From positions 62,001 to 126,000 of the forward strand of contig QFBS01000001.1 of the NCBI GenBank assembly GCA_003265895.1: a stretch of DNA of 64,000 nt, read 5' to 3'. Position numbers and translations under genes: made by a program. The stretch comes from Candidatus Marinamargulisbacteria bacterium SCGC AG-410-N11. GTDB lineage: Bacteria > Margulisbacteria > Marinamargulisbacteria > GCA-2716485 > AG-410-N11. Numbering within the stretch: position 1 is the stretch's first letter; every line of letters begins with the position of its first letter. Under the pieces are notes generated by a model. The model worked only from the letters and a program-made list of their open reading frames with translations. It had not been told where the DNA came from and did no database searches. Of the stretch, positions 18,671 to 60,695 are shown piece by piece.

Positions 18671-18691
18671 AGTAGGGTAATATAAAACAAA

Positions 18692-31702: not shown

Positions 31703-32359
31703 ATGGTTAAAGAATCGTATCGTAAAAAAGACATAAAAAAAACGAATAACAAAACGATAATAGGATTAATTATCCTAACTTTTTGTATAAGTATTTTCTT
31801 TTCATCTTCAATTTTTGCAAAAACTGAAAATAAAATTGATATTCAAAATTCATATGTTCAGTCTGGTATAACAAATAAATGGGCGGCGGGTTTAAAGGGG
31901 ATTTATGCAAAATTAAAGCCATCAAATAATCAAACAAGTTTTCAAAATAGAAAAGATAAATTAATTATTGTAAATGCAGGATTTAGTGCGGTAAAAAATA
32001 GTGTTGCTCTAGGCTTTCAGGATTTGCAAATGATGGAAGATGAAGAGAATGTAGAACCAAAAGTAATTGGAGATGCTCTTTGTTACCCAAATCCATTTAG
32101 GCAAGCTACAGGGACAACATTAGGGTACGAACTATCTAAAGATATGGATATCGATATATACTTATATAATATGATGGCTCAATTAATTGCCAAGAAAACG
32201 TATAGTAAGCAAACTGATGGTGGTCACGGTGGATATAATACATTAAATTTGGAAGCAAACTTTTTAGACGGTAAAATGTTATCAGCGGGAGTTTATTTTT
32301 ATTTGATTGTTCATAATGATAAAGTTTTGGCTAAAGGAAAAATGGCGGTGAAACCATAA
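31703..32359 (+). CDS. Exported protein with FlgD-like/type A sorting-like C-terminal domain
   Basis: This 218-residue protein has a long basic N-terminus, then a hydrophobic stretch (residues 24-40) ending SSIFAKT, a likely signal peptide or anchor. The middle is Asn/Lys-rich and unremarkable. Residues about 122-218 form a FlgD-like Ig domain: DALCYPNPFRQATGTTLGYE, DIDIYLYNMMAQLIAK, a Gly-rich turn, and LSAGVYFYLIVHNDKVLAKG ending MAVKP. This domain type is the C-terminal sorting signal in type IX secretion and is also common at the ends of exported proteins in several phyla. It overlaps the barrel gene by one base. I infer that it is exported with the help of that barrel. Confidence 0.7.
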   Translation: MVKESYRKKDIKKTNNKTIIGLIILTFCISIFFSSSIFAKTENKIDIQNSYVQSGITNKWAAGLKGIYAKLKPSNNQTSFQNRKDKLIIVNAGFSAVKNSVALGFQDLQMMEDEENVEPKVIGDALCYPNPFRQATGTTLGYELSKDMDIDIYLYNMMAQLIAKKTYSKQTDGGHGGYNTLNLEANFLDGKMLSAGVYFYLIVHNDKVLAKGKMAVKP

Positions 32360-33375: not shown

Positions 33376-33396
33376 GATGAAAATGAGAAAAGAGAA

Positions 33397-36300
33397 ATGA
33401 TGATTACAAGAGTATTTCAATTTTTCAAAGCTGTTTTAATAATGGTTAGTGTATTAACCATGTTACAAGCATCCTTAATTGCTGCATCTTCAGATTCCAA
33501 AACAACAATTACTTTTAGAGAAAGAGTCGGATCTGTAGAAAAAGTAGGTTATTTAGAGGGCGTATATCCGTCAGTGGAAGTGGGTCTTTATAAAAAGTCT
33601 GGTACTGTTTTAAAAGCAGAAGATCAATTATGGAAAGAAGATCATTCAAAAGTTTATTTTAATAACGGTTTTTTTAATTTAATTATAGGAAATGGTACTA
33701 ATCAAGTAGGTCATGTAACTTATATTAAAAATAAAAAGTATAATGTAGGAAATGATTTTAGTGCCAATTGGTTTTCAGTTACAAATAATATTGTGATTGG
33801 TTTGAAAGTGGGCGGAATAAAGAATCGGATTTTTGAGTTTGAATTATCTGCAATTCCTTATACTATTCGATCAAAGGTGTCCGAAACGGCTACAAATATG
33901 GATGCAAGTGTTCTTGTAACGGGAAATATTAAAGACCAAAGAACAGTCTTTAGTAAAACTGTAACGGTTAATGCAGATACTAGTTTAAGTGATCTGGTTT
34001 ATATCAAAAACGAAATCCCTAGAGTACTACTGGGTAGAAACCCCGAAAAAAAAGCGTTAGGTTTCTTAACTTTTAATAAAAGTCGTTTAAGCCAAATTCC
34101 TAACATAAGAGAGTCAGATATCGAAAAAGTATGGAAAAATTTAGATTTTCATGGATATATAAAGATTTTAGATGATAATACCAGTCAAGCTCATGTCATT
34201 CCGCCAGTAAATATTGATAACCATTTATTTTTAATTGATATGAAGCCTGTTTTATTAAAAAAATATAAAGAAGATCTTAGGAAAATATTTAAACAATATC
34301 TTGAAGAAACTGCAGGAATTGAAATCGATGGTTCTGTAAAAGCAACCGCTTATTTTAAAAATGGAAATCCTTTATTAGATACTTTTTCTTGGAAAAAGAG
34401 TAAACTAAACCCCAATTCTATTTATTTAACGGGCCGTAAACTGGGGATACAAAAATCAATGCCTCGTCATGATGTCCATGTAAAAGGCGCCATTAATGCT
34501 CATCAATACAAATTAAATGGATTCGACTTAGAGACAAGTTGGATAGTTACGGGTAATGGAACCAACCCAGAATCTAATATTTACACTAAGCCTAATACGA
34601 AAGTTGGTATAGATGTTTATTATCCGATCGAAGCAGTAGAGGTTAATGGCGGTATTAAACTAGGAGATCGTCATTCTGTAAAATTAGGTCAGAAAGTACC
34701 AACACAGCCAGGTACAATTATTTGGGATGGTAAAAACTTTAAAGGGTTTGTCAATAATAAGTGGGAAAATCTTTTGATCTTTGTAGGGAATGGTAAAAAG
34801 AATGAAATTGGCTTTCTAAAAAACTACAGAGAGTTAAATCGATCGCCATCATTCATTTGGGATACAGATACAAATCGTTTAAATATCGGCGTTGAAAAAT
34901 CAAATTCAAAAGTAAATATAGCAAGTAATCGATATGTCGATAAACTATTAAAGATTTCAACGGCTAATGTTGGAACTAAAAATCAGGTAGTTATGGAGAT
35001 AACAAATGACGGTCTGGTTGGTATTGGAACAACTCCAAATACCCATCTCGTTCAGGTAGCCGGTATTACAAATTCGGAGGATATGTTAGAGGGAGGACTT
35101 CCCATTAGACTCGTATATGCCTTAGGAACTTATTTTAAAAAGAATAAAGAAAAGGATATTTATTATCAAAGAGGGAACGTTGGGATTGGTATGCCAGATC
35201 CTACAAGTAACCTAGAAATAGCATCGCCATACAAGGAAGAAGATATTGATATACCGCTAAAAGATGCTGCGATTTCTATGGAATATGTAAAAGATGGTAC
35301 TCCCTTTACATATACTATGGGGGTAGATGCCGATGGTCCCGATGGTGTTTTCTTAATTGAAAATTCTTCAAAGTTAGGATCTACAAAGCCTCTTTTTGTG
35401 TCACAAGACGATCGCTTTGGAGTTGGTGTTTTACCGCCCGCTGCTAACTTGCATGTATCCGGAAACTTAGGATTAATTGTAAGTGGTGAAATCGATACAG
35501 CAACAGCTTCAGCCAGTTTACCGACAGAAGGCCCTGGTACTAGATTGAATTTTTATCCACGAAAAGGAGCCTTACGAATAGGCACTCTAGCTAACACATC
35601 TAAATTAGAAGGTAAAGAGTGGGATGAACGAAGAATTGGTGAATTATCAATATTGTTTGGGTTTAATAATGTAGCTAGTGGTACTTACACGTCATTAATT
35701 GGAGGTGCCAATAATGATTTAGAAGGTGCCTACTCTACCATTTTAGGAGGGTCAGATCATAATGTCCGTGGTTTTTTCGCGTTAGCATTAGGAGAAAAGA
35801 CAAAAATTAACCATCATGGTTCGTTTGCATGGAATGATTATGGATTTGGAATAGCAAAGCAAGCCCTAGAGACAGCTTCTCCAAATCAAGTTGTGATTAA
35901 TGCTATTTCTGGGGTCGGTATTGGGTCAAACCGAACGGATCTAAATGGAGAGCCTTCGTTATTAACGTTATCAGCAAGCGCCGTAATGAAGAGCGATTTT
36001 TTAGAAACTCTGCCTAACTATAAAGGGTTAACTCAAGAAACAGATGAGGATTTAAAAAATGTAAATAAAATTTGGCAACAATTAGTCAAGGATAATTATA
36101 TAGATTCCAATGGCCATTTTAAAAAGTTTATGACAAACTTTGATATTCCTACAAATTATATTGCTTATCCCTTTAGAGCTGAAATTTCAACATTTAATGT
36201 CTATAAAGAACTTAAAGCAATTTATCCTGCAAAAAGAGTAAGCCCTGATATGTTTGTTAATTTAATAACTATTCATGAAGATTTAGATGATTTTATAACG

Positions 36301-39300
36301 CCAGAACATGTATTTAATAAATGGAAGGCAATAAATGAAATTGCCTATGCTAGGGTATTTAATAATTTAAAGGATTTAGAAGTAGTTACATTAAATATTC
36401 TTGGTAAAATGGTCGTTAATAAAAACTTGAAAATTAAAACAAAAGACTATGATTTAAATGACATAAAATATACAAAACATCCCTATTATGTAAAAGATCC
36501 TTCATTAGTGGTTAATTTTTTAAATAGCAAAAAAAATAAAGAAGTTTTAGCAATAGATTTTCAACCGTTTATTGATTTAGGTGATAAATTCAATAAAGAT
36601 CGATATCAGGAATATAAAGAAACTCAACTAAAAGAATATATTTCTTATCGAATTTGGAGTCAATTACTTCAAAAGAATTACATAAGAAAAAACAAAGTAT
36701 TTGATAAATTTAGACCTTCATTTGTTGAAAATGAAGATTATAATAAGTTAGTTCCTGGAGTAACCGTAGCTCAAATAAATAAGGTATTAATGACGCGATA
36801 TAAACAGCAATTATTTGATTCACGTGGTCTAAAAGAAGTACAAGGCTTATCTTTATATAATAATGCAAAAGTAAATGTAGGATATAAAGACCAAGGGTCG
36901 GCAGCATTAGCTGTAAATGGTAATTTAGGTATCGGTACAACTAAAACGTCTGCCCCTTTAACAATTCAAGCTAATAATAATATTATTGAAGATGGCGAAA
37001 ATGCCGGACGTCCTTATATTTTTGAAGTACATTCTCTAAAAGATGTTAATACAATTGCAGAATACCCAGATTCTGCGCTAACAGTGTTTAATCAAACAGC
37101 AGAGCTAATAAAGAAAAAAGATGTCGATCCAGTGGTTATTCCAACGAAGAGTGTATATCCGACACCATCATTTGTTGTGAATAGTAAGGGAAGAGTTGGT
37201 TTTAATATATTTAACGATATTAATCCAACGGCCAATGGCAAACGAATTACAGGTAATATTAGTGTAAGAGTTGGCGATGGCGGTGTTCGTGCTGCAGGAT
37301 TACTTCTACCATCAGGTCAAGAAATATCACAAAAGCCACCGGTTATTGTATGGAGCTATGTTGATATAAAAGACCCTGAGTTTTCAGATATATACTATAC
37401 TTCTGGAAATGTAGGTATTGGAACAATAGAACCTAATAGCTTATTAGAGTTATCAAATGAAGAGGCGAATGACCCTGTTATAACTTATGATCTTAATGGG
37501 GTTGATTACTATACAATGGGAGTAAGTCAGAAAAAACCATCTGCATTCCAAATTGTGCCAAAAGGTAAGCTAGATAATATTGATCCTGTTTTTTCAGTTG
37601 TTGATAATAAAATAGGTATCAATACAATAGACCCTAAACATCAACTGCATGTATCAGGAAATGTTTATTCTAAAGGTGTTTATTTTAAACTAGACCATAA
37701 TCAAAAAGAAAAGAAAGACTATGGGTTTATTGCAAATAACTTATATACCAAAAGATTAATTATTAATGGCGAAAATATTGTTGGTAGTGGTACAAAATGG
37801 GTACCAACAAGAAATGAGCTAGAAGATATTGATTGGATATATCGTCGTGATTTACTAACAAACATCGGTTTCGGAACGGATGATCCAAGTGCTTATGTTG
37901 ATATAGCAGGTACTTTAAAATATAAAGATGGATTAAATATTAGACAGGAGTTATTTTCAAAAGAAGAAATTAAGTTAAATAAATTAAAGTTTAAAAATGG
38001 AACACCTATCCCAAGTGAACTTTATGTTACAGGGTCTTATTTAATTTTAGAGTCAAAGTTACCGCCCAAAACATTTAATATTTCAAACGTACTTACAAGA
38101 GGAGAAGCCAGTGAAGGTGAATTTATTGTATGGAAAGATGCAGAGAATAGTATACTTGTCGATTCTGCGATTTATTGGAGCGATTCTCAGAAAGATCCAG
38201 GTTGGGAATATAATCAAAACCAACAAAAATGGGAGTTTAAACCAAGTTACTCATATGATAAAACATTTAAACAACCAACTACTATGTTTCCGGTTATTCC
38301 TAAAAAATATTTAGATTCTCCAGAAAAATATCCTAACGAAATAAAACGAGTGCAAAATAGTCATATCAAGTTATCAAGAACCTTTGTTTCTACAGAAAAT
38401 AATGATATTAACTTATTAAATAAGTTTACTTTTGGCGCAGAAACAAAAAATGTAAACAGTAAGATAGATGCAGAATTTACCTATAGTGGAGTCTTTTTTA
38501 AAGATTCATATAGCCATTCAGTGGGTCGAATAAACGTTAATTATGATTTTGAAGAGGATTTATTAAACTTTACGCCAAGAGGAATTAATATTCAAATTAA
38601 AGGTGAAAAAGATAAAAATAATAGAGTCCCTTCGATTGTTAATGGTACAACTTTAACGGGTTTAAATGTAGATGTATCAGATGTTTCAGTTCAATTAGGA
38701 GGGGAGCAAACAAGAGGGTTTAAGCATCCTGCAATATTTAAAGGAGATGTAGGTATTGGTACAGAACCTATCAGGCCTGGGATCGAGTTATATCCTAGAT
38801 TAGCTCCTGCAGACGCTATCAAAAAGTTATCAGATACATACCTTTTAGATATCAAAGGGGCATTAAGAGCGACATCTTTTAATATAACTGAAAGATTAAT
38901 TATTACAACAATAAATGTAATACCGGATTCATTAGTAGTAACAGACAAAGGCGCTGTGGGTGTTAATACTGGGTCCCCATCAACAAAATTAGAGATTGAC
39001 GGACTAACAGCTGCCAATTTTACCTCAAGTAATTATATAGAGGCTCCAAACGTTCAGTTTTCTAGTAATAAGTTAATTATTAAAGAAGATGGTTATATTG
39101 GTTTCCGAAAGTTAGAGAATGAAAATCAAATTGTTAGTCTTGAGTTGGATAAGCAATTTGAGAATCAAATTAATCAACCATTTACGTATCATACAGTATC
39201 GATAAATTTAAATTTAGCAGACCCAAAACCAGTTACCGATTCGATTACAGGCCTTGATATTTCAATGCTTTCTAATACATCTCAAAATACGTTTTCAATA

Positions 39301-42300
39301 GAAAAAATTAAAGGAATTGATATAGATTTAACACAATTAGAAAATTTATATCAAGATATAGATAAAGATGGTATTTTTGAAGACAACGCAAAAGTAGTAG
39401 GTTTAGATGTTGTTATTACAAAAAATGTCATAGCGGCGACATCAACGGATCCTAAATATCCATCAATGAATGTTGCTGTTTTTATGGGAGGAAAAGTTGG
39501 TATAGGTACAAGCACTCCTGAATATACATTAGACGTAAATGGTAATATTTACGCTAATGATACCAAGTCTTTACAATTTGAAAATGCTCTTGAGGGAGCT
39601 ACAATAACGCAACGTTTAGTCGTATCTAATAATTTGACATTTAGTTACAAAATCCCGAACGCAAAAATAGTAACGATGAATTATGTCGAAGTTGATAATA
39701 TTATCTTAAAAGATTTAAGTGTTGCAACACCAGATGCGACAAGCTTAAATATAGTGAATTTATTAACGGGTAATAATTTAAATATCACCTCAAATACAGA
39801 TGCTGTTAATGTTAATGTTAACAATAAATTAAAAGCAGTATCTATGAACGTCTTATTCCTGAAAGAAGGTGACACAGATTCCAGTCAAGCACTAGCTGTT
39901 AAAAATACACTAACGGTTAATAGTATTACCGTTAATAACACCACAACAAGCAAAGTAATTAAAGATAACCAATTTGCAGTAAAAAACAACGTCGGAATAG
40001 GAACTTCAGAATCGTTTAATAAATTACATGTAAATATAGAACCATTAAAGAAAAACTTTTTAGAAGTAAAGTTTGATCCAAGAGATAATTTATCTTGGAA
40101 TGCGATTCGATATCAGGTTAGTAGTAATAACGTTACAAATCTTTCGGCAGGACTACTATTAGCCGCAGGTGCGGAAAAAGATCATGTTCCTGCTGGAGTA
40201 GTAGCTCTAAATGAAAGCAGACCAACCGGATCTCATTTAGTAATTCTAACAGGAAAAGAGCGAATCAGAGCATCTTCTACAGGGAATATTTTTATAGGAC
40301 GAAAAACAGAATTATTAGATATAGATAACAAAACACCAGCTTTATTTTCGATAGAAGGAACTGTTAAAACCTCATCATTTTTAATTGACAAAACAAAGCC
40401 AACAGATCAAAACTTTATAATAATAGAGGGTATTGGAGGTTCTCCGTCTATTTTAAGTCCAGCTATAGTTACTACCAGTAGATCAATTATTGCAGATAAG
40501 TTTATCGTCCAAGATGTTTTAGCTATTCCAACACTATCTAATTTTGAGGTTTTAAAAAATCAAGGTGGTCTATTTGTAAGTAGTAATAAAAGTTTATTTT
40601 ATACCAATCATTTTGATGGAGATGCTAACAAGGTCTTTGGAAGTTTTGATAATCCGTTTTTTGTAACAGAAAAGAATACAATTCCTTTTTATACAGCTAC
40701 TAGAAACCTACATTCATCAACAATGAAATTTGTTACATCAAATATTAATTCAAGATTACAATTAAATAGTACACAAGCTAAATTAGCTGCAATTATTCAA
40801 AATGGAACCATTCCAACATATAACTTAAATCAAAATATAAGTTTATTATCATTAAAAACAACACAAAGCTTTTTTCCTAAAAATCTTAAAACAACGTCAT
40901 TTAATTTAGTTCATATTAAAGCTACGGGTAATCCGAATACACGAGATAAAACAATCCAAGATTCAATCGTTGGCTTATCGGTTAATTTAAGTCAATTACA
41001 AAGCGAAAATATAATTAATGTTGGTTCGGAAGTATTCGAAACCAAAGGAGTAAAAAATGCAGCTCGATTCCTAGGTGGTAACGTGGGGATCTCGACAAGT
41101 GAAAATACAAATGTTGTTCATTTTGAACCAAAAAGTACTTTACATATTTTAAATACAACCGAAAATTATTCGTTTATTGTTCAACCTAAAGCTAGCTTAA
41201 AGCATTCAATGATAGTGTCATCAAATGGACTTGTTGGGATTAATACAGATGTACCCAAAGGTGTATTACATATTGGTACAAGTGAAAATCGAACGACTTT
41301 ATTAGTTAAAAGTGTAGAAGGAGAACCCTTATTTAGTGTTGCAGATTCGATTAATATTGGCCCTTCAGCCATTAATAAAACAGCGTCTCTTAATATAGAA
41401 GGTAAAATAAAAGCAGAAAGTTTAAATGCTAAATTTATTAAAGGAAATTCATTAGCTATTAATAATGGTACAGCCTCTATTTTATCTGTAACAGATAAAG
41501 GGAATATCGGTTTTGGTATTGCAGTGCCAGAAGCTCAGCTTCATATTCGAAGAGAGATCAATAAAAATGTAATCCAAAATAACCAAAGTGGATATATTCA
41601 TCAAGCTATTAATATTAATACTTCAGGAGCAAAGCCAGTAACTGAAAGTATTACAGGGATTTCAATGATCATTTCATCAAATATAGAAACTGAAACAGAT
41701 CGACGAAAAAATAGTTTAGATGATAATTATACGGCAAAAGGGTTAAATATAGACTTAAGATCGATTCAAAAGAATACATCTAGTAATGTTATTGGTTTAG
41801 TTGTTAATGCAAAAACAAAGATTAAGGCTGCAGGTGGTGGCGGTATTGGCGGTGTAGTTGGCGGTACTGATCCTGTTAAAAATATAGCTGCTTTATTTAA
41901 TGGAGGAAATGTTGGTATAAATACGTTGCAACCAACGGAGAAATTACATATAAACGATACAATAAAAACTAAGCAATTAACACTAACAGATACAGTAGCG
42001 CTAACCTTGAAAGATGTTACTGTTAACTCTGTTATTGTAACTAATTCTATAATGGCAAATGTAAAAATGGACCAATTAAATAGTTCCGAAAATTTAGAAG
42101 TAAATATATTAAGGTTACCCTATTCATTTGAAGAATTAAAAGATAATAATATTACAGTAAATATTACTGGGAAAATTGTTGTGAAACCTAAAACAGAAGG
42201 CGATAAAACAATTCCATCTAGATTATTTTTTGGGACATCTTTCCCTAATCCAACTAATTCTATAATGGTAGCAATTAATCGAAATGAAAATGAAATTAAA

Positions 42301-45300
42301 CCAGGGTTTAATGGGATTGCAATAGGAAAAGAAGGTTCTGCAACCTTTAATATATCAAATTCCTTAACTGTTACATCAAGTGGTTATTTACAGCTCCAAA
42401 AAATAACAAGTAATAAAGATAATCTGTTATCAATATTTTCTAATGCATTAATAGTAACTGGTAATACTGTGGGTCAAAAAGGAGTAACTATTAATCAAGG
42501 TTTAGCCTCTAATAAGTTAATGTTTAATAACATGTCATTATCACCCACTCATAGATCACATTCCGGTTTGTTATATAGAAACTCCGATTCAAATCATTTA
42601 ATGTTTAAAATGCATGATGGGACCGAAAAAAATATTTCAGCAGTTGTAAAATCAACGCCAAATACAGTCGTCAAATTTGCAAAAGATACTATAACAAGCA
42701 GTAATATTTTTACATATTTTAATCGAAATCAATTGAATTTTAGTATAGGAACCTCAAATGTAGCTAATACTCAATATTTTAATAAAAAAGATAAATTAAC
42801 AATAACAAGTAATATTTCAGCTACTGCTATATTTGAAAATAACAGTTTTTTTGCACATGATATCAATGGGTTCTTTCCTAATAGGCAAACAGCGAAGGAT
42901 GGCAGTAATAAAGTTCTGCGAGGGTTATGGATCAAATCAGGCAGCATAAACACAAACCAAGATATCGAAAAGTTACATGGTAAGGGTAAGGGCAACGGTG
43001 CTAAAGAAAAAGTCTTAATTGGCTTAGAGGTAGATATGTCCAAATTAAATGCCAAAACAACAGATCAAACTGAAGGAAGTAATAATGTATCTGGCGAAAA
43101 ATATGCAGGTATTTTTACAGGCGGTAGCGTTGGTATTATTGTAAGTCCTAATAGCGAGACCTTATCTTATAAATTAACTACTCGTAAAATACCTTTACCT
43201 TCTGCAAATGTTCATATTATCAGTAATATGATAGCTCATGACAAAGATAGTAAAAGACCGATCCAAAATGATTTATGGATCGAGACAACACAAAATACAG
43301 TATTTTTAGTAACTAAAAATTTCTCAACAACTGAACTTGTTACTAGAAATTATATATCTATAGGTAAAAAAGATAATATAACTAAAAGTAATGCCCATTT
43401 AACATTAATTAGCCCATCCGATAAGCCCTCATTTCAAATTGACAATAATACAAATACATTGTTAAGCATTAAAAAGAATGCTAATGGTAAGTATGGTTTA
43501 GGAATTAATACATCTGAAATTGATAGTCAGTTAAATTTAAAAGGAAATGGCATAAATGATATATTAAATATTTCAACAATATCAACGGCTAATATCTTTC
43601 ATATTTCAAACGAAAATAAAATTGGTTTAAGAACCGCAAATCCAACGAGTATACTCGAAATAAATAGTAACAAAATAAATAAATATTATTTACAAATAGG
43701 GCTCGGTAGCCAATCGCTAATCGTAACACAAAACCAAGTATTGGTTAATTTAAAAGGAGATAAACCAGAAAAAACAACAAAAGAGTCTATTAACGCATTA
43801 AAAGTAAATAAAAGTTTATATTCTGGGGTTAATACCGAAAATAGAACAGCTGACAACACTCACATAAAAGTTGATACCGCTATACGATCTAAAAATATTC
43901 CAGCAACGATAGCAGAATTTACTTCAGATAATCAATCCTATTATTGGAGTTATATCAATAATGATAGTGCAACTGGTCTAGAAATTATTTTAAAAAATCA
44001 GAACGTAGCCGTCCCTGGTGAATTATTATTAAATGAACTTTCAAATGCAGCAGGTCCAGTTCAGATTACTCCAGGTCAAATAAGATATCAACCATTTATT
44101 ATTAATACGATTAATCAAGGAGATATTAAAATTAAAAATATTAAACTAGGTGTTAAAAATGGTAATGGACAACAAATAACCGCAACTTTGTTGGATAAAG
44201 ATGGAAACCCAGCACCAGATACAATACCTGTAGATAAAATCCTATCTTCTGATGGAACTGATACAAGTTACAATACGATATCTTTTAATTCAAATACACT
44301 TATAACAAATCAAGTATATTATTTAAAAATTGAAAATAAAGGTACGCAAACAATTGAGTTATCGCCACAAGAGCAAACAGTGGGGCAAATTTTAACAGTT
44401 CCAAATGATCCAAATGGTTTATCTATAGCGACCCAGCAAAATATGATGATGGATATCATTAGACAATTACCAGAAAATCAATTTTATGTCGGTTTTAATA
44501 AGTTAGACTTCAAAATTAAACCAAGTAGTATGTCTACAGACCTACTTAATATCGGTCAAAAGGGGGTTGCGATCAATACGGATGTTGTTGGTAGAGCTAC
44601 AACAGCTAATTTTATTGTTAAAGCTTCCAAAAGTGATAATATTGTCGATGTAAGTCAATACAGTGGTAACCAAAAAGTACAATCGCTATTCATTTCAAGA
44701 GGTGGTAGTGTTGGTATTGGAACAAGTAATGTTGGCGTAGGTACTAACGCATCAGCATTAGTTGTAGACGGAAATACAAAAGTATACCAAGTTTCAAAAA
44801 ACGAAAATGGAACAGCCTTAACATTTACAGCTCCAAATCAAAATTATAATTTTACAATTACTAGTAACTATACTCCCTTTGTCCAAGAGAGAATTACATC
44901 AACATCAACAAGTAACTTTATGATTGAAAAGAAAATCAAAACCAACTCCGGAATAGACTATACTGCCGCTAGTGTAAAAACTAATGTTGGTATGGAATGG
45001 GGTTATTTCCAAAAAGAAAGTAATCCTAATATTAAAAAAGACTTAAATGGATTATTTGTTAATATTAGATCGGGTACTAATTTGGGTGCTATAAAGAGAA
45101 AAGATATGCATGTTTTAGAAAATGATTCGAGCGATGATACAGCTATCGTTGATGCTACAAAAGATATAAGCACTGGTCAGCAAACAGATCTTCCCATAGT
45201 CCATGGTGTTAAAGTCTATATGGATTTATTAGCAAAAGATCCATCATTTGGAACAAAAGAAGGTAAAATTGTTCCAGCATCATTTACCAGTTTAGATTCT

Positions 45301-48503: not shown

Positions 48504-48505
48504 AT

Positions 48506-49986: not shown

Positions 49987-50039
49987 CTATGATTTTCGAT
50001 ACAAGTTTCATTAAAAAATTTACGATTTCATTATTAAAC

Positions 50040-50059
50040 AGGAGTATATTATTATGTAA
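50040..50059 (+). promoter_or_regulatory. Strong ribosome site with start-stop ATG-TAA before giant gene 2
   Basis: AGGAG at 50040-50044 is followed nine bases later by ATG at 50054 and at once by TAA. The real ATG of the giant is at 50085, with a weaker site AAGAAGGGG (50063-50071). A start-stop element in a leader can hold ribosomes. A chance match in AT-rich DNA is also possible. Confidence 0.35.
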
Positions 50060-50084
50060 TATAAGAAGGGGTTTTGTAGAATTT

Positions 50085-53000
50085 ATGAAACAACGGATAA
50101 AGCAGTATATTTTAATATTAGTATCATGTTTAATGGCAGGATCGTTAGTAGTTGCAAATACTACCCCGATGACGATTTCATTACAAGCAACGTTGCAAAC
50201 GCAAAAAACAAACTTAAATGCCGAAGTTGCAGATATTAAAGTTGAATTAGAAGGAAAAAAAATAAGGCCAGAAGATGGGAAATCAGTCCTAATTACAACA
50301 TGGTCCCAAAAATATAAACAAGAAATGATTCGTAATGGCCGGTTTTCTGTTGTATTAGGAACCGATCCTAAAAATCCAATTAAAGCAGAGATGCTTAATT
50401 TACAAGAACCCCATTTTAGAATTACCCTAAATGATAGAGATGATTTAACCGCTCGGTTTCCAGTTCCATCTGTTCCATATTCAATTCAATCAAAAGTAGC
50501 CGAAGAGGTATTATCCGTAAAAGCTGAAAATATTCATGGTGTATTTACCAATCCATTTTTAGTAAAAGCCGATATGAACATTAACTCGAATACATTAGTT
50601 GTTAAAAAGAATGGAAACGTAGGGGTAAACACCGCAACGCCAAATTATATGTTAGACGTAAATGGGAATTTAAATGCAAGTGAATATTATTATACCGATA
50701 AAAGTGGCAAACAGTTAAAGTTAGAAGAAGCTTTATCTTGGCGTAAGTCGGCAGATAATCAAAGTTTGTATTATGTAAGTGGAAATGTTGGGATTGCAAC
50801 AGAGAACCCTAAATATGCATTAGATGTAGTAGGAACCGTGAATGCAACACAGTATCTTATAAAGGGAGAACCTTTAAACGATTGGTTATCAGGTTCTTTG
50901 AGTTGGCGAAAAACAAAAGCCGATAGTATTTATTATAAAATTGAAACTAGTGATGGCGGAGTTGGTATTGGTACCGATAATATTAGTGAACGTTTAGATG
51001 TTGATGGCGCTATTCGTATTGGAAATAGTATTCAAAAATTGCCTAAGGCTGGAACAATAGAATATTCGTTAGATAGTAAAGGACTTCCAGATTTTTATGG
51101 TTATGTTAGAGATGGTATCCGTTTTTCATTAACTGGTCTAAAACCTGAAAATGATCCTCAGAAAAATCAGATACTATTTTATACTAATAAAGATCGAGTT
51201 AGTGGCTCTGATCAACTAACATTTGTTAACGAGAGGCTAGGTGTTGGAACGCCTACTCCTGATGCGACAGTAACGATTGTCGGGTCACCAGATCAAAATG
51301 AAGATTTATTAAATATAAAAAATAGTGATGGGAAAACAGTTTTAAACGTTAAAGATAAAAATGTTGGGATTGGAACGGATGATCCAAAATTTAAATTAGA
51401 TGTTAATGGAATATTAAATACACAAGAATATTATATAAATGGAGAACCACTTAATAAGGCCTTTTCCACAGGTACATTTTTCTTGAAAGGAAATAACGAA
51501 GCTGTTTTTTATGATTTAGGAAACGTTGGGATTGGAACATCAACTCCGAAAAACTTACTAGAAATTTCAAGTCCAACTCGAAATGCTGCGATTACATTTG
51601 ATATCTTAGGAGATGATCTATTTACAATTGGTGTAGATTCATTAATTGAAAATACATTTATTTTTTCAAAAGGAAGCGACTTAAGCCAGCCAGTATTTTC
51701 ATTTAATGGAGAACGAATTGGTGTCGGTTTAAATCAACCAAAATCAAATCTTCATGTCAGTGGGAATTCAGGGCTATTAGTAGAAGGAACCTTTGGTGAT
51801 CCAAACGCATTTTTACCAGCAACAGGTGCTGGGACACGAATGATTTGGTATCCTGGAAAAAGTGCTTTTAGAGTAGGTCATGTTGAAGGCTCTAACTGGA
51901 ATGATGTTAACTTAGGACTACATTCAGTGGGGCTAGGGTATGATCCGTTAGTAACAGGAGAATATGCTGTAGTAGCTGGTGGATATAAAAACCAAGCAAT
52001 TGGAAAAAATTCATTCGTTGCCGGTGGTTTAACAAACATAGCAGAAGGTCATTATAGTTTTGCTGCAGGTCATAATGCATATGCTAAGCATCATGGTTCC
52101 TTTGTATGGGCCGATTATACACCTACTGCAAATCCATTTGAATCAACAGCTCCCAATCAGTTTTTAATTCGAGCTAATGGAGGGGTTGGTATTGGAACAA
52201 ATAAAACGGATAAAAGTGTATTAACAGTATACAGAGATAATGATAAATCTCATCGTTTAATTACATTGGGAAATGTTAACAATCCTGATAATGTAACGGT
52301 TGTAAATGCTGAGGGGCAGCTTGGTATTGGTGTTTCTAAAATTCCTGATAATACTAAAATGACTGTTATGGGCGGAAATGTGGGAATAGGAACAACTATG
52401 CCTAAAGCAATGTTAACTATTTCATCTAATTTAACTGAGGGAAATATATTAGAAATAAAAAACGAAAATGTATCATCAGATCCATTAGTTGTTATAAGTC
52501 ATGAAGGAAACATGGGAGTTGGTGTTAGGGATCCTCAATATGCATTAGATTTAGGTGCCGGTAAAATATATGCATCGCAGTTTTTAATGGTAGACCCAAA
52601 TGATCCTAGTTCCGTTATTGTGTTACAGCCAAGTAATGGATCACCTTGGGCGGATCCGTCAGAAAATGGTAATAATACATACCGAGCTCAAGGACTTATC
52701 GGTATTGGTACTGCAACCCCAAACAGCCTATTAGAGTTATCAAATCAAAATTCAAAAGGAAGTCCACCTGTCATTACATTTGATCTTAATAAAAATGATA
52801 TTTATTCAATTGGCGTTGTAACGGATAATAACAACATAAAATATTTTACAATTCAACCAGGTTCATCATTATCCCAAAAAATAGCCCCAATTTTAATAGC
52901 TACACAAAGTGTAGGAATCGGAACAACAGTAAATCCTCCAAGTAGCAATCTACATGTTTCAGGTAATACAACTATAATTGGCTCATTATTAGTAGGAACA

Positions 53001-56000
53001 ACCAACGTGAAGCCAGGTTATGAAATATTTATTGATGGTACCTTAAGAGGTATGAACTTAGGTGATAATTTTGTGATTAATGACGATAAATGGGATCCTA
53101 AACCAACACCTTGGAAAACAAATAAAAAAACAGATGAAATTTATTATACATCCGGAAATGTAGGGATAGGAACGGCATTTCCTACCGCAACATTAGATGT
53201 AAATGGTACAGTATCTGTTAATCGATTCGAAGTAAAATCGCCAATTAAATTAGATGGAGATTTAACAACAAAGCTCCTAAAGTTAAAAGATATAAAGCAA
53301 ACAGTCGCAACTTATGGCATGCTATTTGTTGAAGATACAGAATTAAAATATCGAAAACCTGGTTCTAATGAAGATAAAATTATTTCATCTCCCATTAAAA
53401 AAGAAGATGGGTTGTTTTCAGGGCCATTATCATATTGGATCGACGAATCAACAATTGGTATAGCTCCTATTTTTTGGAATAATGATAAAGGTATATTAAG
53501 TGCTAGCTCTAATCTTAGAGTAAACGGTTATATCCAAGAAGAGCTTGGACTAACAATTACATCAAATACAGAATTTGGAATTCCAAGCTATAATCAATCT
53601 ATAAGCTCATTTCGAATTGACTCAGAGTTAACTCATCGAGGTAAAATTACAGAAGTAACATCTTATACTGGCCAAGATATTAATATTGTTTTTAAAAAAG
53701 ATTGGGGAACAGATACCGAAGAGCCTGTTATTATTAAAGGATTAGACTTAAATTTAAGCCAACAAGGTGGAAAAGTTCTAAATCGATCAAAAGTAATTGG
53801 TTTAAATGTTGATGTAAGCTCTGTAAATATTGAGTCAAATTCCAATAAATATGCTGCTCTATTTATGGGAGGTAATGTCGGGATAGGAACAGAATCTCCA
53901 TTAACAGAGCTAGAAGTAAATGGTGTCGTTTCTGCAAACTTTTTCAATTTAACAGGAGGGTTAGACGTTTCGACATTAACGATTAACAAAGAAAATAAAG
54001 GGTTTTATGCAGAAACTAGTCGGAGTAATCAAACGCGAATAGGTATAGGAACCTTAACACCAGAAACTGAGTTAGATGTTCACGGAACCGTATCAACGAA
54101 CCGATTAATAGTTAGGTCTGGATTAGTTGCAACCACTATGAACATTGGTAATAATAATTTTGTCGTTGATGACGCTGGTAATATTGGAGTAGGAACGGAT
54201 AAACCAAATGCATTTTTAGAATTAAGTAAAGAAATAACAAAACCATTAGATAAACCATATATTGGAGAAAAGATAGGAATAAACATAGCAAGAGCCAAAG
54301 AAAAAGGAGATTCATTTAAGTTGTTAGAAGATCTAACAGGGTTACAAGTTAATATGAGTTCTGAAAAAAATAACAAATTAGGTGGTCAAAAAGTTGCCAC
54401 GGCTATTAAAGTCGATTTATCCAATATTCAACTAGATAAAGATAGTAAGGCTGTAGGTTTAGATATTAATGTTGAGTCACCCGAAACGGATAATCCTGGA
54501 GCAATTCGCTATGCCGCATTATTTAATGGTGGTAAAGTGGGAATAGGAACAAGAGAACCACTAGCAACATTGCATGTAAGTGGAAATTTAAGAGCTAATA
54601 AAATTATTTTAGGAGAGTCAATTGATACTCCTTTTGCGACATTTAATAGTTTAGTTGTACAAGGTGTTGCAAGTTTTAATCGTGTTACGTTAAATGAATT
54701 AGTCATTAATGATCGTATTTCGGCTAATAGACTAACAATACAAAAAGGAATTGAAGCACCTTTTGGAGAATTTTCACAACTCACTGCTAAAATAGCATCC
54801 TTTAATACAATTAAAGCAAACAATTTAACGGTTTCAAATAATTTATCAAGCCTTTTTGGCGAGTTTTCAGGTGGTATTGGTATTGGTGGCGTCCAAGCAC
54901 CAACGTCAGGTATTCTTGTAAGCGGTAATATTTCAGCTGGCGATTTAGTCGTCAATAACAATTTAATTATATCTAAAAATGCAACATTTCGAGTTAATAA
55001 TTCAGACTTATATGTCGATAAGTCTGGCTTAGTTGGTCTAGGAACAATTAACCCCAAAAATAAGTTACATGTTTATTTTGATAAATCGGTAGAATATGAT
55101 GAAGAGAACTCAAATTCATGGAACGCCATTCGAGTAGAATCAAATGTAAATCAAAATGAAGGTGCCGCTGGTATTTTATTAGTACCAAACAATAGTGCTC
55201 CATCATCATCAATTGGATCAGGTATCGTTGCTGTTCGAGGAAATCCAGATATCAATGCTTCAGATTTAGTATTTATAACAGATCCAATAGAAGGTTTACC
55301 TAAAGAAAGAATCAGAATAACATCGGAAGGAAAAATAGGTATTGGACTAAAAACTCCTCAACATGAGTTAGACATAGCGGGAACAACAAGAGTGAGTGGT
55401 AATCTAATTATCGATGGACAACTAATTGTTAAAGAAATTAAATCCAATGGTTCATTAGTAATAAGTCCAAATCAAGAAATTATATTTAAAGAATTTGCAA
55501 CATTTGAAAAACCAGTAACCTTAAATAAAGGATTATATTTTCAAATCAATAATACAGTCCCGCCAGTTAGTAAATTTGGTCAAATATACTTAGATAAAAA
55601 TCAAGACTTAATTTATCAGATTCCAGGTGAAACAAATACTAAAAATATTTCATCTGCATTTACAGGAAAGTCATCAGTTATTCCATATTTTGATAAAAAT
55701 GGAAACTTATCTAGCCAAGCATCATTAACATACTCTACAGAAACAAATAAAACAACAATCGGAGATAAAGATAATTTAGGACAACTTGAAATAATCAACA
55801 ATTTTAATAAAGATAATGAAGGGAATATGTCCGCTGTTTCAATTAATATGCAATTTAAAGATAGAACCGCAGCCACACAAAAGGGTACATTTAAAGGTTT
55901 AAATATCGATTTTAGGTCAGACCCGTTACCAGGAGAGGATCCTTTATTATTTGGTAGATTAGGAGATCAAGAAGTTGCTATTGGTCTAAATATCGATTTG

Positions 56001-59000
56001 AGAAACTTAATAGCAGATTATAGTATCAATAATAAAAATACATCAGCAACAAAATATTCAGCTCTATTTCAAGGTGGAAATGTCGGTATCGAAACAGAAA
56101 CTCCTCAAGCCGCTTTACATATCGTATCAGATGGTCAAAAGGATGCTTTTAGAGTAGATACAAAAGATAAATTAAATACGTTGATTGTTAATAAAGATGG
56201 GTTAGTGGGAATAGGTACAGGTTCTCCAGAGTCTATGTTACATATTGAAAATACGCAAGATAAAGCGTTTGCCATGATCGTTAGTAGTAATAGTAAAACT
56301 GTATTAGCAGTTTTAAAAAATGGAAACGTTGGAATTGGTACGGATAGCCCAAGTGAAAAATTAGAAGTATCAGGTACTGTATCTGCTAATATAGCAAATG
56401 TAGGTACCTTAGTAGGAACTACTTTAAATATAGCAAATGGTGCCTTAGTAGTTAGTAATAATATTGTGGGTATCGGAACATTAAATCCTAAAGGAAATAT
56501 TCAGTTTAAAAAAGAGCTAACTTCTAATTCAGAGGAAAGTCCATTTATATCCCAAAAAATGGAGCTAGTTATAGCGGGTGATCCTGCAAAAGAGCAAGGA
56601 GGCTTTTTTAAATTACAGCGTGATCTAACAGGGATTAATATTGATATAGATACTAATACAGGCAGTAGTATTGGTGATAATACAGTGGGAGTTACAGTAA
56701 ATGGAATGGTAATCGATTTAACTGGGATTACATTATCATCTGATAAAAGTAATGCTACAGGGTTAAATGTTGATGTTACAGGAGAAGAAGGTAATCGGTA
56801 TGCCGCCCTATTTTTGGGAGGAAATGTTGGTATTGGACTAAAAACGCCAACACAGGACTTAGTCGTTTCTGGTAACATTAAAGCTAAAAATATCATTATT
56901 GAAGACCATTTAGATGCAAGTATTGCCATTGTAACAGCTAATACATTAAAGGTATTAGATAAAGCTACTTTTAAAACAGTAACTATAAACTCATTAGTTG
57001 CAGATTTAGTTTCAGCTAATAAGATAACTATTAAGGAAGAGCTAACGGTATCTACAGCATCTTTTACAGAAATAACTGCTAATTTACTAGCTGCATTTAA
57101 TAAGGTGGGTGTAGGAATTGCAGATCCTACAGTTGAGTTAGATGTAAGTGGTAGTGTTAAAGTAAGCGGTAATATCATTATTCAAAAGGAATTAATGGTC
57201 CATAGTATCACCGCTAATAATAAAATTATAACAATTAATGCTAATGAACTATTTATTAGTGGAAAAGTATCTGTTAATAATACTCTTAGTATCAAAGAGC
57301 ATATGTTTTTAACAAAAGGAATAACCCGAGATTTAACGGAAAGGTCAAGAACTCAATTATTTGTAGATAGCGACGGTCATTTAAATTATGCTTTACCAGA
57401 TACAACTATAGCGACTATAAATATTACCAAGCCATTATCCGGAACTCCTGGTCAAATTCCTTTTTACGGAGACAATGGACTTGTAACTGGAAATCCTAAT
57501 TTTACATATGATAACAGTAATAATAAAGTTACTTTGGGTATAGCTAATCAAGCCACAAGCTTATTTATCAATTCCACATTTGATAAAGATCTTACAGATA
57601 ATGAGATTTCTGCTCAAACAATCTTTTTTGATATCGCAGACCGATCAGGTTTTGATGACAAAGATCAAACATTCAAAGGATTAAATATTAAGCTCCAATC
57701 AAATCCACTAGAGACTAATGATCCATTTAACTTTGGTCGATTATCAGATAAAGAAGTAGCTATAGGGGTTCATGTTGATATGACAAACGTATCAGCAAAA
57801 TATACATCATCACAAAAAAACCCAAGTGCATATAAAGGTACTAAGTATGCCGCACTATTTTCTGGAGGTAACGTAGGAATTGGTCCAGATGCTACGTTTA
57901 AACCAAATGCAACATTACACATTAAATCATCAAATGATAGCGAAGATATATTTAGAATTGATTCGTCAAATCAAGATAGTGCCTTACATGTCAATGGATT
58001 AGGTCTAGTAGGTCTAAATCAATCTAATCCACAAGCTCAACTACATATTCAAAAGCAATTAAACGCAACTAGACCATTATTGAAAATAACCAGCGATAAC
58101 GAAACCGCAGATTTCTTAATTGTAGATCAAAAAGGGTTTGTTGGGATTGCTAGCAGTAACCCAACTAGTATTTTAACAGTGTCTGGTGATATAAAAATTA
58201 ATAACAGTAAGAATGAAAAAGTTTTAGCGACTAATCAAGGTAACATAGGAATTGGAACCGAAACTCCAGAAGCCTTATTAGAAATAACAAGAGCAATAGC
58301 TAATTCTGAAAGTTATTTTAAAATTAAAAATGACTCTAAAACGAACTTTGTTGTTAATAAATCTTCAGATGGTGTTAATGTTGGTGTTGGTTTAGACAGT
58401 CCTAATTATAATTTAAGTGTCGATGGCTTAATTCAGGCAACAGACGGTCAATCAACGTTACTTCCCTCGTTTGTTAATGATAGTAAATCAAGAGGGTTTA
58501 TTGTTGAAAATCAACAAAGTTTTCTTTTCTATGGAATTAATGGTGAGTCAAGTACGCCTGAACCTTCAATCGTATGGGGGCCTGATAATAGTACAAAGTT
58601 AACATTTAGATATTCAGATAATAATGATAATTTTTCTGATACAAAGTCAATTTTAACTTTAGTGCCTGAGACTTTATCAGAGGGCTCTAGAGTTGGTATC
58701 GCAACATCAAATCCGTTAGCAACATTAGGTGTTTCAGGGAATGTTGTTGTAATGACAGCAGATGGCTCAGTTAAGGCTATGATCGTAACCAAAAACTCTC
58801 AAGGTAATTCAATCATATCCATTGGCGGTAACCCGTCAATACAGGATTTAAATCAGCAAACTGCTAGTTTAAATATAAATGGAGACCTTAAGACAAATTC
58901 AATTTCAATTGTAAAAGGAAACGTCGAGTTATCAACAGTTAATATTACAGGAGAGCTAGTAGTATCTAGAAAAGTAGATGAGGCAACCGTCGATTATAAA

Positions 59001-60695
59001 TATCCACAACAAACATCAGGTCAAACAATTTCAATTAATATTGCAGAAGAGTTATCACATAATGTAACAGGACTAGACATAAATATAACGGCAGCAGATA
59101 ATATAGCTGCAAATAGAAAGTATACAATTTGGAATAATAATGTAGCATATGGATTAAAAGTTGATGTCAGTAGCTTATTATATGAGGATGCTTCATTAGC
59201 TAACATTGAAGATTTTGAAATTTATCCAAAAAATAGAAATGGAAATAAATATGCTGCTGCATTTCTAGGAGGAAACGTTGGAATTGGTGTTAATGAACCT
59301 AAATTTCCATTACATGTAAAAAGTAATGTAAGAGGTAATATAGCACAGTTTTCAGCTACAAATACGGACTTATTAATTAAAGATTATGATAATGGATCGA
59401 TCGGTTTCAATCTAATTAACGCAAAAGAGCCTGGTATCGAAAATAGAGCTATATTATTACAACCTACAAGAGTTGGAATTGGAACAACACCAACGCAAAT
59501 GTCAGATGGAAACCCAGAAACAAGGCTTCTTGTTAATGGTGATATCAGAGTTGGTATTAATAATATAAATATCAGAGGAACCGCGGCTAGTGGAACTGCA
59601 ACACCAGAAATTACAGCTCTCAATATCGGTAATAGATTGTTTTTTTCAGGTGGTACACATACAAGTTCAGCTAGTAATAGTGATAATAATGACCCAATTT
59701 GGATAGCTAGATATAATGAGGCCACTAACAAATCTAGCTTATTGGTTAATGTTGGAGGATATGCAGATACTGCCGATTCTACAAAAAAAGAAAATGATAA
59801 ATTTATTATCGGATATCCGAAAGGTACAGGTGGCGAATTCCAAAATGCATTTGTTGTCCAAATGGATGGTAAAGTAGGAATTGGTCCAAATAATAACGCT
59901 ATGAATCCAAAAACCTGGTTACATGTTAAAGGAGACTCCCAAGGACCTGCCGATAAACCTGAAAATTCAGTTGTATTAATTGAAAATACCTCAGGAAATG
60001 GAAATGCATTAGCTTTATCAACAATATCAGATCAGGGACATCTAGCTACATTCTACTCTGCTGGAACCTTAGTAGGTTCAATAAAGGCAAATAAGGATTC
60101 AGTTAGATATCAAACAATCGGTGCTGACTATGCAGAATATTTACCTAAAATAAATCAAGAAGAAGTAATATCTAAAGGGCAAATCGTAGGTGTTGTAAAT
60201 GGAAAAATTAGTAAAGATACATCAAATGCACAGTTATATTTAGTAAAAAGTACTAGTCCAGCGGTTGCTGGAAATTGGCCTGGTGAAGATAAGACTGGAT
60301 TTGAATTAATAGCCTTTTTCGGACAAGTAGAAGTCGAAGTATTAGGCTCGGTAAACGAAGGTGATTATATTATTCCTTCTGGTAAAAATGACGGTATCGG
60401 TATTGCTAAGCCAGAATCTATGTTATCAGCGATCGAAAAGCAAAAAATTGTTGGCCGGGCATGGGAGTCCTCAGATAATAAAAATATTAAAAAGATTAAT
60501 GTAGCCGTTGGTATGAATTTTAGCCGACCATCTATTCAATCAGATATAAATCAATTAACAAAATTAGAAGATAAACTAATTCAGTTAGAATTAGATAAAC
60601 AAACAATTCAAGAAGATCTTAATTCAAGATTAAATAGCCAAGACAATGAACTTAAAATGTTACTAAATAAAGTTGATAAATTATCTAGCAATTAA
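50085..60695 (+). CDS. Giant repetitive surface protein 2 (about 3536 residues), tail-fibre/adhesin-like
   Basis: I place the start at 50085 because MKQRIKQYILILVSCLMAG is a clean signal peptide. The open frame reaches back to 49956 but that extension has no domain character and overlaps the protease gene. The N-terminal beta domain (residues about 24-145) has NGRFSVVLGTDP and VPSVPYSIQSKVAEE. About 35 GNVGIGTxxPxxxLDVxG-type repeats follow, with a YadA-head-like island at 615-679 and six larger GLNVD/KYAALF modules. The C-terminus has DYAEYLPK near residue 3347, the same downstream domain as giant protein 1, and a coiled-coil-like tail. It is almost free of cysteine. The protein is a likely secreted fibre or adhesin. 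It is paralogous to giant protein 1. Confidence 0.8.
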   Translation: MKQRIKQYILILVSCLMAGSLVVANTTPMTISLQATLQTQKTNLNAEVADIKVELEGKKIRPEDGKSVLITTWSQKYKQEMIRNGRFSVVLGTDPKNPIKAEMLNLQEPHFRITLNDRDDLTARFPVPSVPYSIQSKVAEEVLSVKAENIHGVFTNPFLVKADMNINSNTLVVKKNGNVGVNTATPNYMLDVNGNLNASEYYYTDKSGKQLKLEEALSWRKSADNQSLYYVSGNVGIATENPKYALDVVGTVNATQYLIKGEPLNDWLSGSLSWRKTKADSIYYKIETSDGGVGIGTDNISERLDVDGAIRIGNSIQKLPKAGTIEYSLDSKGLPDFYGYVRDGIRFSLTGLKPENDPQKNQILFYTNKDRVSGSDQLTFVNERLGVGTPTPDATVTIVGSPDQNEDLLNIKNSDGKTVLNVKDKNVGIGTDDPKFKLDVNGILNTQEYYINGEPLNKAFSTGTFFLKGNNEAVFYDLGNVGIGTSTPKNLLEISSPTRNAAITFDILGDDLFTIGVDSLIENTFIFSKGSDLSQPVFSFNGERIGVGLNQPKSNLHVSGNSGLLVEGTFGDPNAFLPATGAGTRMIWYPGKSAFRVGHVEGSNWNDVNLGLHSVGLGYDPLVTGEYAVVAGGYKNQAIGKNSFVAGGLTNIAEGHYSFAAGHNAYAKHHGSFVWADYTPTANPFESTAPNQFLIRANGGVGIGTNKTDKSVLTVYRDNDKSHRLITLGNVNNPDNVTVVNAEGQLGIGVSKIPDNTKMTVMGGNVGIGTTMPKAMLTISSNLTEGNILEIKNENVSSDPLVVISHEGNMGVGVRDPQYALDLGAGKIYASQFLMVDPNDPSSVIVLQPSNGSPWADPSENGNNTYRAQGLIGIGTATPNSLLELSNQNSKGSPPVITFDLNKNDIYSIGVVTDNNNIKYFTIQPGSSLSQKIAPILIATQSVGIGTTVNPPSSNLHVSGNTTIIGSLLVGTTNVKPGYEIFIDGTLRGMNLGDNFVINDDKWDPKPTPWKTNKKTDEIYYTSGNVGIGTAFPTATLDVNGTVSVNRFEVKSPIKLDGDLTTKLLKLKDIKQTVATYGMLFVEDTELKYRKPGSNEDKIISSPIKKEDGLFSGPLSYWIDESTIGIAPIFWNNDKGILSASSNLRVNGYIQEELGLTITSNTEFGIPSYNQSISSFRIDSELTHRGKITEVTSYTGQDINIVFKKDWGTDTEEPVIIKGLDLNLSQQGGKVLNRSKVIGLNVDVSSVNIESNSNKYAALFMGGNVGIGTESPLTELEVNGVVSANFFNLTGGLDVSTLTINKENKGFYAETSRSNQTRIGIGTLTPETELDVHGTVSTNRLIVRSGLVATTMNIGNNNFVVDDAGNIGVGTDKPNAFLELSKEITKPLDKPYIGEKIGINIARAKEKGDSFKLLEDLTGLQVNMSSEKNNKLGGQKVATAIKVDLSNIQLDKDSKAVGLDINVESPETDNPGAIRYAALFNGGKVGIGTREPLATLHVSGNLRANKIILGESIDTPFATFNSLVVQGVASFNRVTLNELVINDRISANRLTIQKGIEAPFGEFSQLTAKIASFNTIKANNLTVSNNLSSLFGEFSGGIGIGGVQAPTSGILVSGNISAGDLVVNNNLIISKNATFRVNNSDLYVDKSGLVGLGTINPKNKLHVYFDKSVEYDEENSNSWNAIRVESNVNQNEGAAGILLVPNNSAPSSSIGSGIVAVRGNPDINASDLVFITDPIEGLPKERIRITSEGKIGIGLKTPQHELDIAGTTRVSGNLIIDGQLIVKEIKSNGSLVISPNQEIIFKEFATFEKPVTLNKGLYFQINNTVPPVSKFGQIYLDKNQDLIYQIPGETNTKNISSAFTGKSSVIPYFDKNGNLSSQASLTYSTETNKTTIGDKDNLGQLEIINNFNKDNEGNMSAVSINMQFKDRTAATQKGTFKGLNIDFRSDPLPGEDPLLFGRLGDQEVAIGLNIDLRNLIADYSINNKNTSATKYSALFQGGNVGIETETPQAALHIVSDGQKDAFRVDTKDKLNTLIVNKDGLVGIGTGSPESMLHIENTQDKAFAMIVSSNSKTVLAVLKNGNVGIGTDSPSEKLEVSGTVSANIANVGTLVGTTLNIANGALVVSNNIVGIGTLNPKGNIQFKKELTSNSEESPFISQKMELVIAGDPAKEQGGFFKLQRDLTGINIDIDTNTGSSIGDNTVGVTVNGMVIDLTGITLSSDKSNATGLNVDVTGEEGNRYAALFLGGNVGIGLKTPTQDLVVSGNIKAKNIIIEDHLDASIAIVTANTLKVLDKATFKTVTINSLVADLVSANKITIKEELTVSTASFTEITANLLAAFNKVGVGIADPTVELDVSGSVKVSGNIIIQKELMVHSITANNKIITINANELFISGKVSVNNTLSIKEHMFLTKGITRDLTERSRTQLFVDSDGHLNYALPDTTIATINITKPLSGTPGQIPFYGDNGLVTGNPNFTYDNSNNKVTLGIANQATSLFINSTFDKDLTDNEISAQTIFFDIADRSGFDDKDQTFKGLNIKLQSNPLETNDPFNFGRLSDKEVAIGVHVDMTNVSAKYTSSQKNPSAYKGTKYAALFSGGNVGIGPDATFKPNATLHIKSSNDSEDIFRIDSSNQDSALHVNGLGLVGLNQSNPQAQLHIQKQLNATRPLLKITSDNETADFLIVDQKGFVGIASSNPTSILTVSGDIKINNSKNEKVLATNQGNIGIGTETPEALLEITRAIANSESYFKIKNDSKTNFVVNKSSDGVNVGVGLDSPNYNLSVDGLIQATDGQSTLLPSFVNDSKSRGFIVENQQSFLFYGINGESSTPEPSIVWGPDNSTKLTFRYSDNNDNFSDTKSILTLVPETLSEGSRVGIATSNPLATLGVSGNVVVMTADGSVKAMIVTKNSQGNSIISIGGNPSIQDLNQQTASLNINGDLKTNSISIVKGNVELSTVNITGELVVSRKVDEATVDYKYPQQTSGQTISINIAEELSHNVTGLDINITAADNIAANRKYTIWNNNVAYGLKVDVSSLLYEDASLANIEDFEIYPKNRNGNKYAAAFLGGNVGIGVNEPKFPLHVKSNVRGNIAQFSATNTDLLIKDYDNGSIGFNLINAKEPGIENRAILLQPTRVGIGTTPTQMSDGNPETRLLVNGDIRVGINNINIRGTAASGTATPEITALNIGNRLFFSGGTHTSSASNSDNNDPIWIARYNEATNKSSLLVNVGGYADTADSTKKENDKFIIGYPKGTGGEFQNAFVVQMDGKVGIGPNNNAMNPKTWLHVKGDSQGPADKPENSVVLIENTSGNGNALALSTISDQGHLATFYSAGTLVGSIKANKDSVRYQTIGADYAEYLPKINQEEVISKGQIVGVVNGKISKDTSNAQLYLVKSTSPAVAGNWPGEDKTGFELIAFFGQVEVEVLGSVNEGDYIIPSGKNDGIGIAKPESMLSAIEKQKIVGRAWESSDNKNIKKINVAVGMNFSRPSIQSDINQLTKLEDKLIQLELDKQTIQEDLNSRLNSQDNELKMLLNKVDKLSSN
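51927..52119 (+). other. YadA-head-like repeat island in giant protein 2
   Basis: Residues about 615-679 show VTGEYAVVAGGYKNQAIG, KNSFVAGGLTNIAEG, HYSFAAGHNAYAKHHG and SFVWADY. The regular S-F-A-A-G steps every 14-16 residues match the YadA/Hia head fold more closely than in giant protein 1. Confidence 0.8.
53731..59290 (+). repeat. Six long GLNVD...KYAALF...GGNVGIGT modules in giant protein 2
   Basis: A larger module recurs at about 53731-53895, 54340-54553, 55894-56098, 56631-56839, 57679-57884 and 59071-59295. Each opens with GL(N/D)(V/I)(D/N), has a second GLNVD-like strand, then (K/R)YAALFxGGNVGIG. The modules differ in the linker, and at DNA level they are well diverged. Confidence 0.75.
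60122..60545 (+). other. C-terminal DYAEY domain of giant protein 2
   Basis: The region starts ADYAEYLPKINQEEVISKGQ, continues GVVNGKISKD, AVAGNWPGED, FFGQVEVEVLGSVNEGDYII and SGKNDGIGIA, and matches the end of giant protein 1 step by step. A helical tail of about 50 residues follows (QLTKLEDKLIQLELDKQ). Confidence 0.6.

Follow-up and report, generated by a model that had tools for sequence, protein, structure and literature searches.

How two exported giant proteins that resemble phage tail fibres reach and hold the cell surface is the question raised by a 64,000-nucleotide stretch of Candidatus Marinamargulisbacteria bacterium SCGC AG-410-N11 (here the window), where they lie beside a small sorting-domain protein and a PorV-like barrel. 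A sequence-only reading had proposed that the small protein acts as an adaptor in a system related to type IX secretion, or that the giants follow a new barrel-assisted route. The source genome is a bin of 1.5 Mb in 52 contigs, 56% complete, and the locus was compared across a set of 36 genomes in which marine relatives are labelled Marinamargulisbacteria and deeper ones Saganbacteria, WOR-1 or Termititenax. The conserved gene set that emerged suggests export and anchoring of a type IX-like kind beyond the Bacteroidota.

The small protein, the barrel and the two giants were all confirmed where that reading had placed them (Table 1). Translation of giant 2 from the ATG at 50085 gives its 3536 residues, the longest open frame, from a TTG at 49956, encoding 3579 aa. 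The paralogy of the giants was also upheld, by five stretches of 25–45% identity (best E 6e-84). In the window the start of the barrel gene overlaps the stop of the small-protein gene by a single base, and 21 bases separate the barrel from giant 1. No barrel gene of its own lies directly before the start of giant 2, and the NUDIX, xerD and M50 genes between the giants look like housekeeping genes.

Table 1. Features of the surface-fibre locus (window positions 31703-60695), in their order along the plus strand
Feature	Positions	Strand	Basis
Proposed adaptor, a small exported protein of 218 aa made up of a signal peptide, a short variable segment and a type A sorting domain at the C-terminus	31703..32359	+	TIGR04183
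Type A sorting domain, residues 128-217, conserved lysine at residue 213	32084..32353	+	TIGR04183, alignment
PorV/PorQ-like outer-membrane barrel, 338 aa	32359..33375	+	NF033709, PorV_fam matches of relatives
Giant fibre 1, 4858 aa, exported, tail-fibre-like	33397..47973	+	ORF, family matches
DYAEY (Peptidase_G2-like) domain of giant 1, then helix of about 50 residues (47812-47967)	47410..47967	+	PF11962; model
NUDIX hydrolase gene, probably a mere neighbour	47970..48503	+	
xerD-type recombinase gene, probably a mere neighbour	48506..49372	+	
M50 site-2-type protease gene, probably a mere neighbour	49369..49986	+	
Giant fibre 2, 3536 aa, paralogue of giant 1	50085..60695	+	ORF, alignment
DYAEY domain and C-terminal helix of giant 2	60126..60692	+	PF11962 below cut-off; 38% identity to that of giant 1

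Profile searches matched residues 128-217 of the small protein's 218 to TIGR04183, the model for type A sorting domains in type IX secretion, at 29.6 bits against a cut-off of 23, and 14 of 15 relatives matched the same model; the type B model (TIGR04131) gave no match to the small protein. The sorting-like domain described from the sequence is therefore real, but the name FlgD-like given with it is better replaced by type A sorting domain. Its end coincides with the C-terminus of the small proteins or falls a few residues short of it. A lysine six residues from the C-terminus is invariant across 15 aligned small proteins and is retained in most other sorting domains of Margulisbacteria; the lysine of type A sorting domains is described as nearly invariant, of functional importance and contacting PorV (PMC10994853). 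Between signal peptide and sorting domain the small protein has only a short, weakly conserved segment, and its profile found no relevant chain among the sequences of solved structures.

Over residues 54–338 the barrel matched NF033709 (PorV/PorQ) with an E-value of 3.3e-9, its 36.8 bits lying below the curated cut-off of 90. Matches to PorV_fam and to PorQ were each obtained with 14 of 16 related barrels (best 6.8e-17), and the PorV-type barrel of the sequence-only reading is accordingly PorV/PorQ-like at the level of the family. No relevant chain was found with the barrel profile among sequences of solved structures, and no relatives of the barrel among contigs of the viral collection. A plain FadL-like porin had been named as one finding that would refute the proposed surface-assembly system. 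The barrel showed no match to the FadL family, and up to E 0.1 the only Pfam match was a weak one to TraF_2. PorV and PorP-like shuttles are, however, themselves FadL-type barrels (PMC9143113), so this contrast is not decisive and concerns function more than fold. In five other loci (L234, L235, L236, L238, L246) PorV-like barrels of 600–743 aa carry a long additional C-terminal part, which in L238 appears TPR-like by eye.

The N-terminus of each giant is a Sec-type signal peptide; both match tail-fibre families and contain VGIGT-like repeated motifs, 12 in one and 25 in the other with fewer than one expected from composition. An N-terminal head domain is common to both and to nearly all fibre proteins encoded behind the barrels. 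At the C-terminus PF11962 (DYAEY/Peptidase_G2) matched giant 1 with 26.4 bits (cut-off 25) and giant 2 with 18.5 bits, below the cut-off, and a structure model of giant 1 continues beyond the DYAEY domain into a helix of about 50 residues. Profile scans detected no sorting domain in either giant; nor was there a match to any membrane-anchor family, the C-terminus of giant 1 being modelled as a long helix. Comparison of the DYAEY fold gave nothing under E 0.001, the best weak matches being phage capsid decoration and head-fibre proteins. DYAEY relatives turn up in numerous viral-collection contigs, most of the sampled ORFs there terminating just past the domain, and on these grounds the idea that DYAEY is a novel sorting signal was rejected. 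The earlier observation that both giants end in DYAEY and lack a sorting domain stands, but the domain is a C-terminal domain of phage tail fibres and not an alternative signal. Related autocleavage domains at the C-terminus of phage proteins drive trimerisation and are then released (PMC8326128), and by analogy the giants would trimerise and cleave themselves. At L067:4790-18522 a giant is split into frames of 3834 and 656 aa with DYAEY on the second, representing either a real break or an assembly error.

To establish how widely this arrangement occurs, barrel and small protein were used as queries against the 36 genomes, mostly metagenome bins, and 45 barrel places were recovered. A sorting-domain gene lay directly upstream of the barrel on the same strand in 33 of the 45, with approximately 0.01 expected by chance; the adjacency of the two genes is not chance. 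Most pairs, those of paralogous cassettes included, overlap by 4 bases; the distance from barrel to fibre gene is 9–22 bases in the main cassettes. The complete order of small protein, barrel and giant was found in 15 genomes including that of the window, some of the giants being cut by contig ends, and the possibility that these genes are never neighbours elsewhere therefore fell away. In eight other genomes DYAEY giants stand as a tandem pair. Two relatives have the NUDIX-xerD-M50 trio behind the giant, and a third has it on the other strand.

Occurrence of the giants is tied to that of the pair. Within the class, 14 of the 16 genomes that have the pair also have DYAEY giants, against none of the 11 that lack it (p 6e-6), and in the two pair-bearing genomes without a DYAEY giant the giants are cut by contig ends. 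Counted by family, the only form in which kinship was considered, the association was 7/8 against 0/9 (p 4e-4). At five loci (L057, L060, L063, L065, L088) a barrel without an upstream sorting-domain gene was observed, in genomes also without DYAEY giants. Barrels, sorting domains and fibre heads showed correlated distances (Mantel r 0.76 for barrel and domain, 0.73 for barrel and head, 0.62 for domain and head), and the cassette therefore duplicates and diverges largely as a unit.

Paralogous copies of the pair elsewhere in these genomes precede other fibre-like proteins, bearing an S74 chaperone in one case, a weak gp37 trimerisation match in one, a phage depolymerase C-domain in one and DYAEY in others. 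A fused form, with the sorting domain at the end of a larger upstream protein and the barrel gene right behind it, was also found; it occurs at two loci of the class (L087, L239) and in the phylum's outer members. The largest fused cargo is an open frame of 9118 aa with a sorting domain at its end and a barrel of its own behind it (L236 and L245, G032:C1 near 656,000). The separate small protein may have derived from such fused cargo, rather than the reverse. Since the main cassettes of the class have a separate sorting-domain protein and other loci of the phylum fuse this domain to a larger cargo, the adaptor role first proposed for the small protein is plausible; that the giants contact it or use its route would be a further step.

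A search for SprA and PorU homologues elsewhere in the genome had been suggested. No SprA-like gene was found in the window's own bin, but the phylum has a candidate family. The SprA model gave weak and often repeated matches, all below cut-off, in 29 of the 36 genomes, mostly on one outer-membrane-type protein of 1300–1850 aa, and a profile of this SprA-like family recovered it in 33 of 36. A structure model of one member (residues 23–1222; pLDDT 78, pTM 0.53; last 104 residues missing) was compared with the PDB, and the four best matches were the four SprA structures (E 1.7e-15, 5.3e-15, 1.3e-14 and 2.3e-9), followed by a phage protein at 5.6e-7 and the first uptake receptor at 2e-5. TM-scores of this fold match were low, at 0.16–0.28, and the modelled member is distant within the phylum. 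As searches with the family profiles against sequences of solved structures gave no relevant chain, the link to SprA rests on fragmentary HMM matches, fold and gene neighbours. The Pfam family SprA_N matched none of the relatives and none of the controls either. The three genomes without an SprA-like gene (the window's bin, G017 and G013) also lack queA, its usual neighbour, and absence from the bin may for this reason be a gap. In seven Saganbacteria/WOR-1-type loci (L136, L138, L139, L140, L142, L143, L144) the gene adjoining the SprA-like gene encodes a protein of 711–770 aa with a C-terminal sorting domain.

Several further arrangements were seen around this family. Two of the sorting-domain neighbours were scanned and are S8 proteases, each possibly a maturation protease or a marker substrate. 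At L127:16776-18408 the SprA-like gene is followed by a gene for 557 aa and then by ExbB, ExbD and TonB, a possible energy source at this locus only. At L105:2-8102 the end of a giant, a gene of LolA-like size, a PorV-like barrel, a possible propeller protein and an SprA-like paralogue of about 1000 aa lie in a row.

Known systems share parts of this inventory. In Bacteroidota, SprA takes in cargo with a type A domain; PorV then binds the sorting domain and moves out sideways together with the cargo (PMC10994853). The present system has in common with this a type A sorting domain with its terminal lysine, a PorV/PorQ-like barrel and an SprA-like protein in the phylum, whereas it belongs to another phylum, carries the sorting domain on a separate small protein and has a dedicated barrel in each cassette. 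It may also differ in its further machinery, as no PorL/GldL motor was matched in the 36 genomes and a PorU-type C25 peptidase (PF01364) was matched in one of them, control genomes giving no match to either. Type B giants such as SprB have their own SprF-type barrel encoded directly downstream and remain anchored on it (PMC9143113, PMC12618676). The SprB-SprF pair of Flavobacterium johnsoniae, with its type B domain and PorP/SprF-type barrel, thus resembles the cassette in its giant surface protein and in a dedicated shuttle barrel directly downstream of the sorting-domain gene that is also an anchor; in the cassette, however, the domain is type A, the barrel PorV/PorQ-like, and the giant a third gene without a sorting domain. 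Phage tail fibres and neck appendages with a C-terminal chaperone (Peptidase_G2, S74) share the DYAEY C-terminus and the repeated fibre motifs, and sister cassettes likewise carry S74 or other phage-fibre domains, whereas the giants differ by signal peptide, cellular gene neighbours and an additional C-terminal helix. Trimeric autotransporter adhesins (type Vc) are also very long surface fibres, and the giants are probably trimeric like them, but the giants end in a helix where these have a C-terminal membrane anchor.

The best reading of the cassette, tentative and at somewhat short of an even chance, is a type IX-like variant where the fibre is encoded apart from its sorting-domain adaptor and the latter is held by a dedicated PorV-like barrel. 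All products of the cassette would be exported by Sec. The type A sorting domain of the small protein would then cross the outer membrane through an SprA-like translocon encoded elsewhere in the chromosome and be collected and held at the surface by the PorV-like barrel of the same cassette, leaving the free portion of the small protein to act as adaptor or anchor for the giants. A giant might travel with the adaptor or meet it outside. In this proposal the giants could not carry a sorting domain themselves because their C-terminus is taken by a phage-fibre-type maturation domain and coiled coil. Use of the SprA-like translocon, contact between adaptor and giant, trimerisation and surface display are steps that we infer. 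The fuller proposition, a sorting signal acting in trans in Margulisbacteria, whereby a small adaptor on its own PorV-like barrel brings a trimeric phage-fibre-like giant through the SprA-like translocon or anchors it outside, is held with more reserve still. The type IX link first drawn from the sequence is thus retained for the type A domain, the PorV/PorQ-like barrel and their conserved adjacency, and the giants may be exported by the same route.

The main rival, which we judge less likely, accepts that the genes cooperate and gives the small protein no part as export adaptor: with the barrel it would form a surface attachment complex, as PorZ does with PorQ, or a receptor, and the giants would reach the surface by their own SprA-like contact or another route, such as one using the head domain. 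That domain, shared as it is by giants and nearly all fibres, might act in docking or as a signal for export; giant 2 lacks a barrel gene immediately upstream, and PorQ matches are as frequent as PorV_fam matches. Pairing of sorting domain and barrel with much larger fused cargo is nevertheless what would be expected of a shuttle and its substrate, and argues against this rival. A second rival, improbable, takes the barrel for an ordinary porin-like protein, the small protein for an envelope protein unrelated to it, and their neighbourhood for an inherited gene order without joint function. The PorV match below the curated cut-off and the barrels that stand alone in some genomes would fit such an account, but adjacency in 33 of 45 places, co-divergence, presence tied to the giants and a 4-base overlap kept in most loci, paralogous cassettes included, speak against it.

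Far less probable again is an origin of the giants as tail fibres of a prophage or domesticated phage unconnected with the cell surface. Matches to tail-fibre families and the DYAEY domains of viral-collection contigs point that way; signal peptides on both giants, housekeeping surroundings and an arrangement kept between families led to its rejection.

If the sorting-domain adaptor on a dedicated barrel is the correct reading, the separation of sorting domain and cargo would show how a fibre whose maturation depends on its C-terminus may nonetheless be sorted by a C-terminal signal, and the pulling and the anchoring parts of the machinery could then be told apart by experiment. Margulisbacteria are usually placed near Cyanobacteria. 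Among the papers searched, none mentions type IX secretion together with Margulisbacteria; database annotation may already label such proteins singly. Type IX secretion has been called exclusive to Bacteroidota (PMC12618676), and the occurrence of an SprA-like family, of type A sorting domains and of PorV-like barrels throughout Margulisbacteria would alter the picture of its origin or spread.

Elsewhere in the window, at 936-2726 and 16345-19804, genes for an ABC exporter, an asparagine synthase and a UDP-GlcNAc 2-epimerase were observed, possibly representing a surface-glycan cluster.
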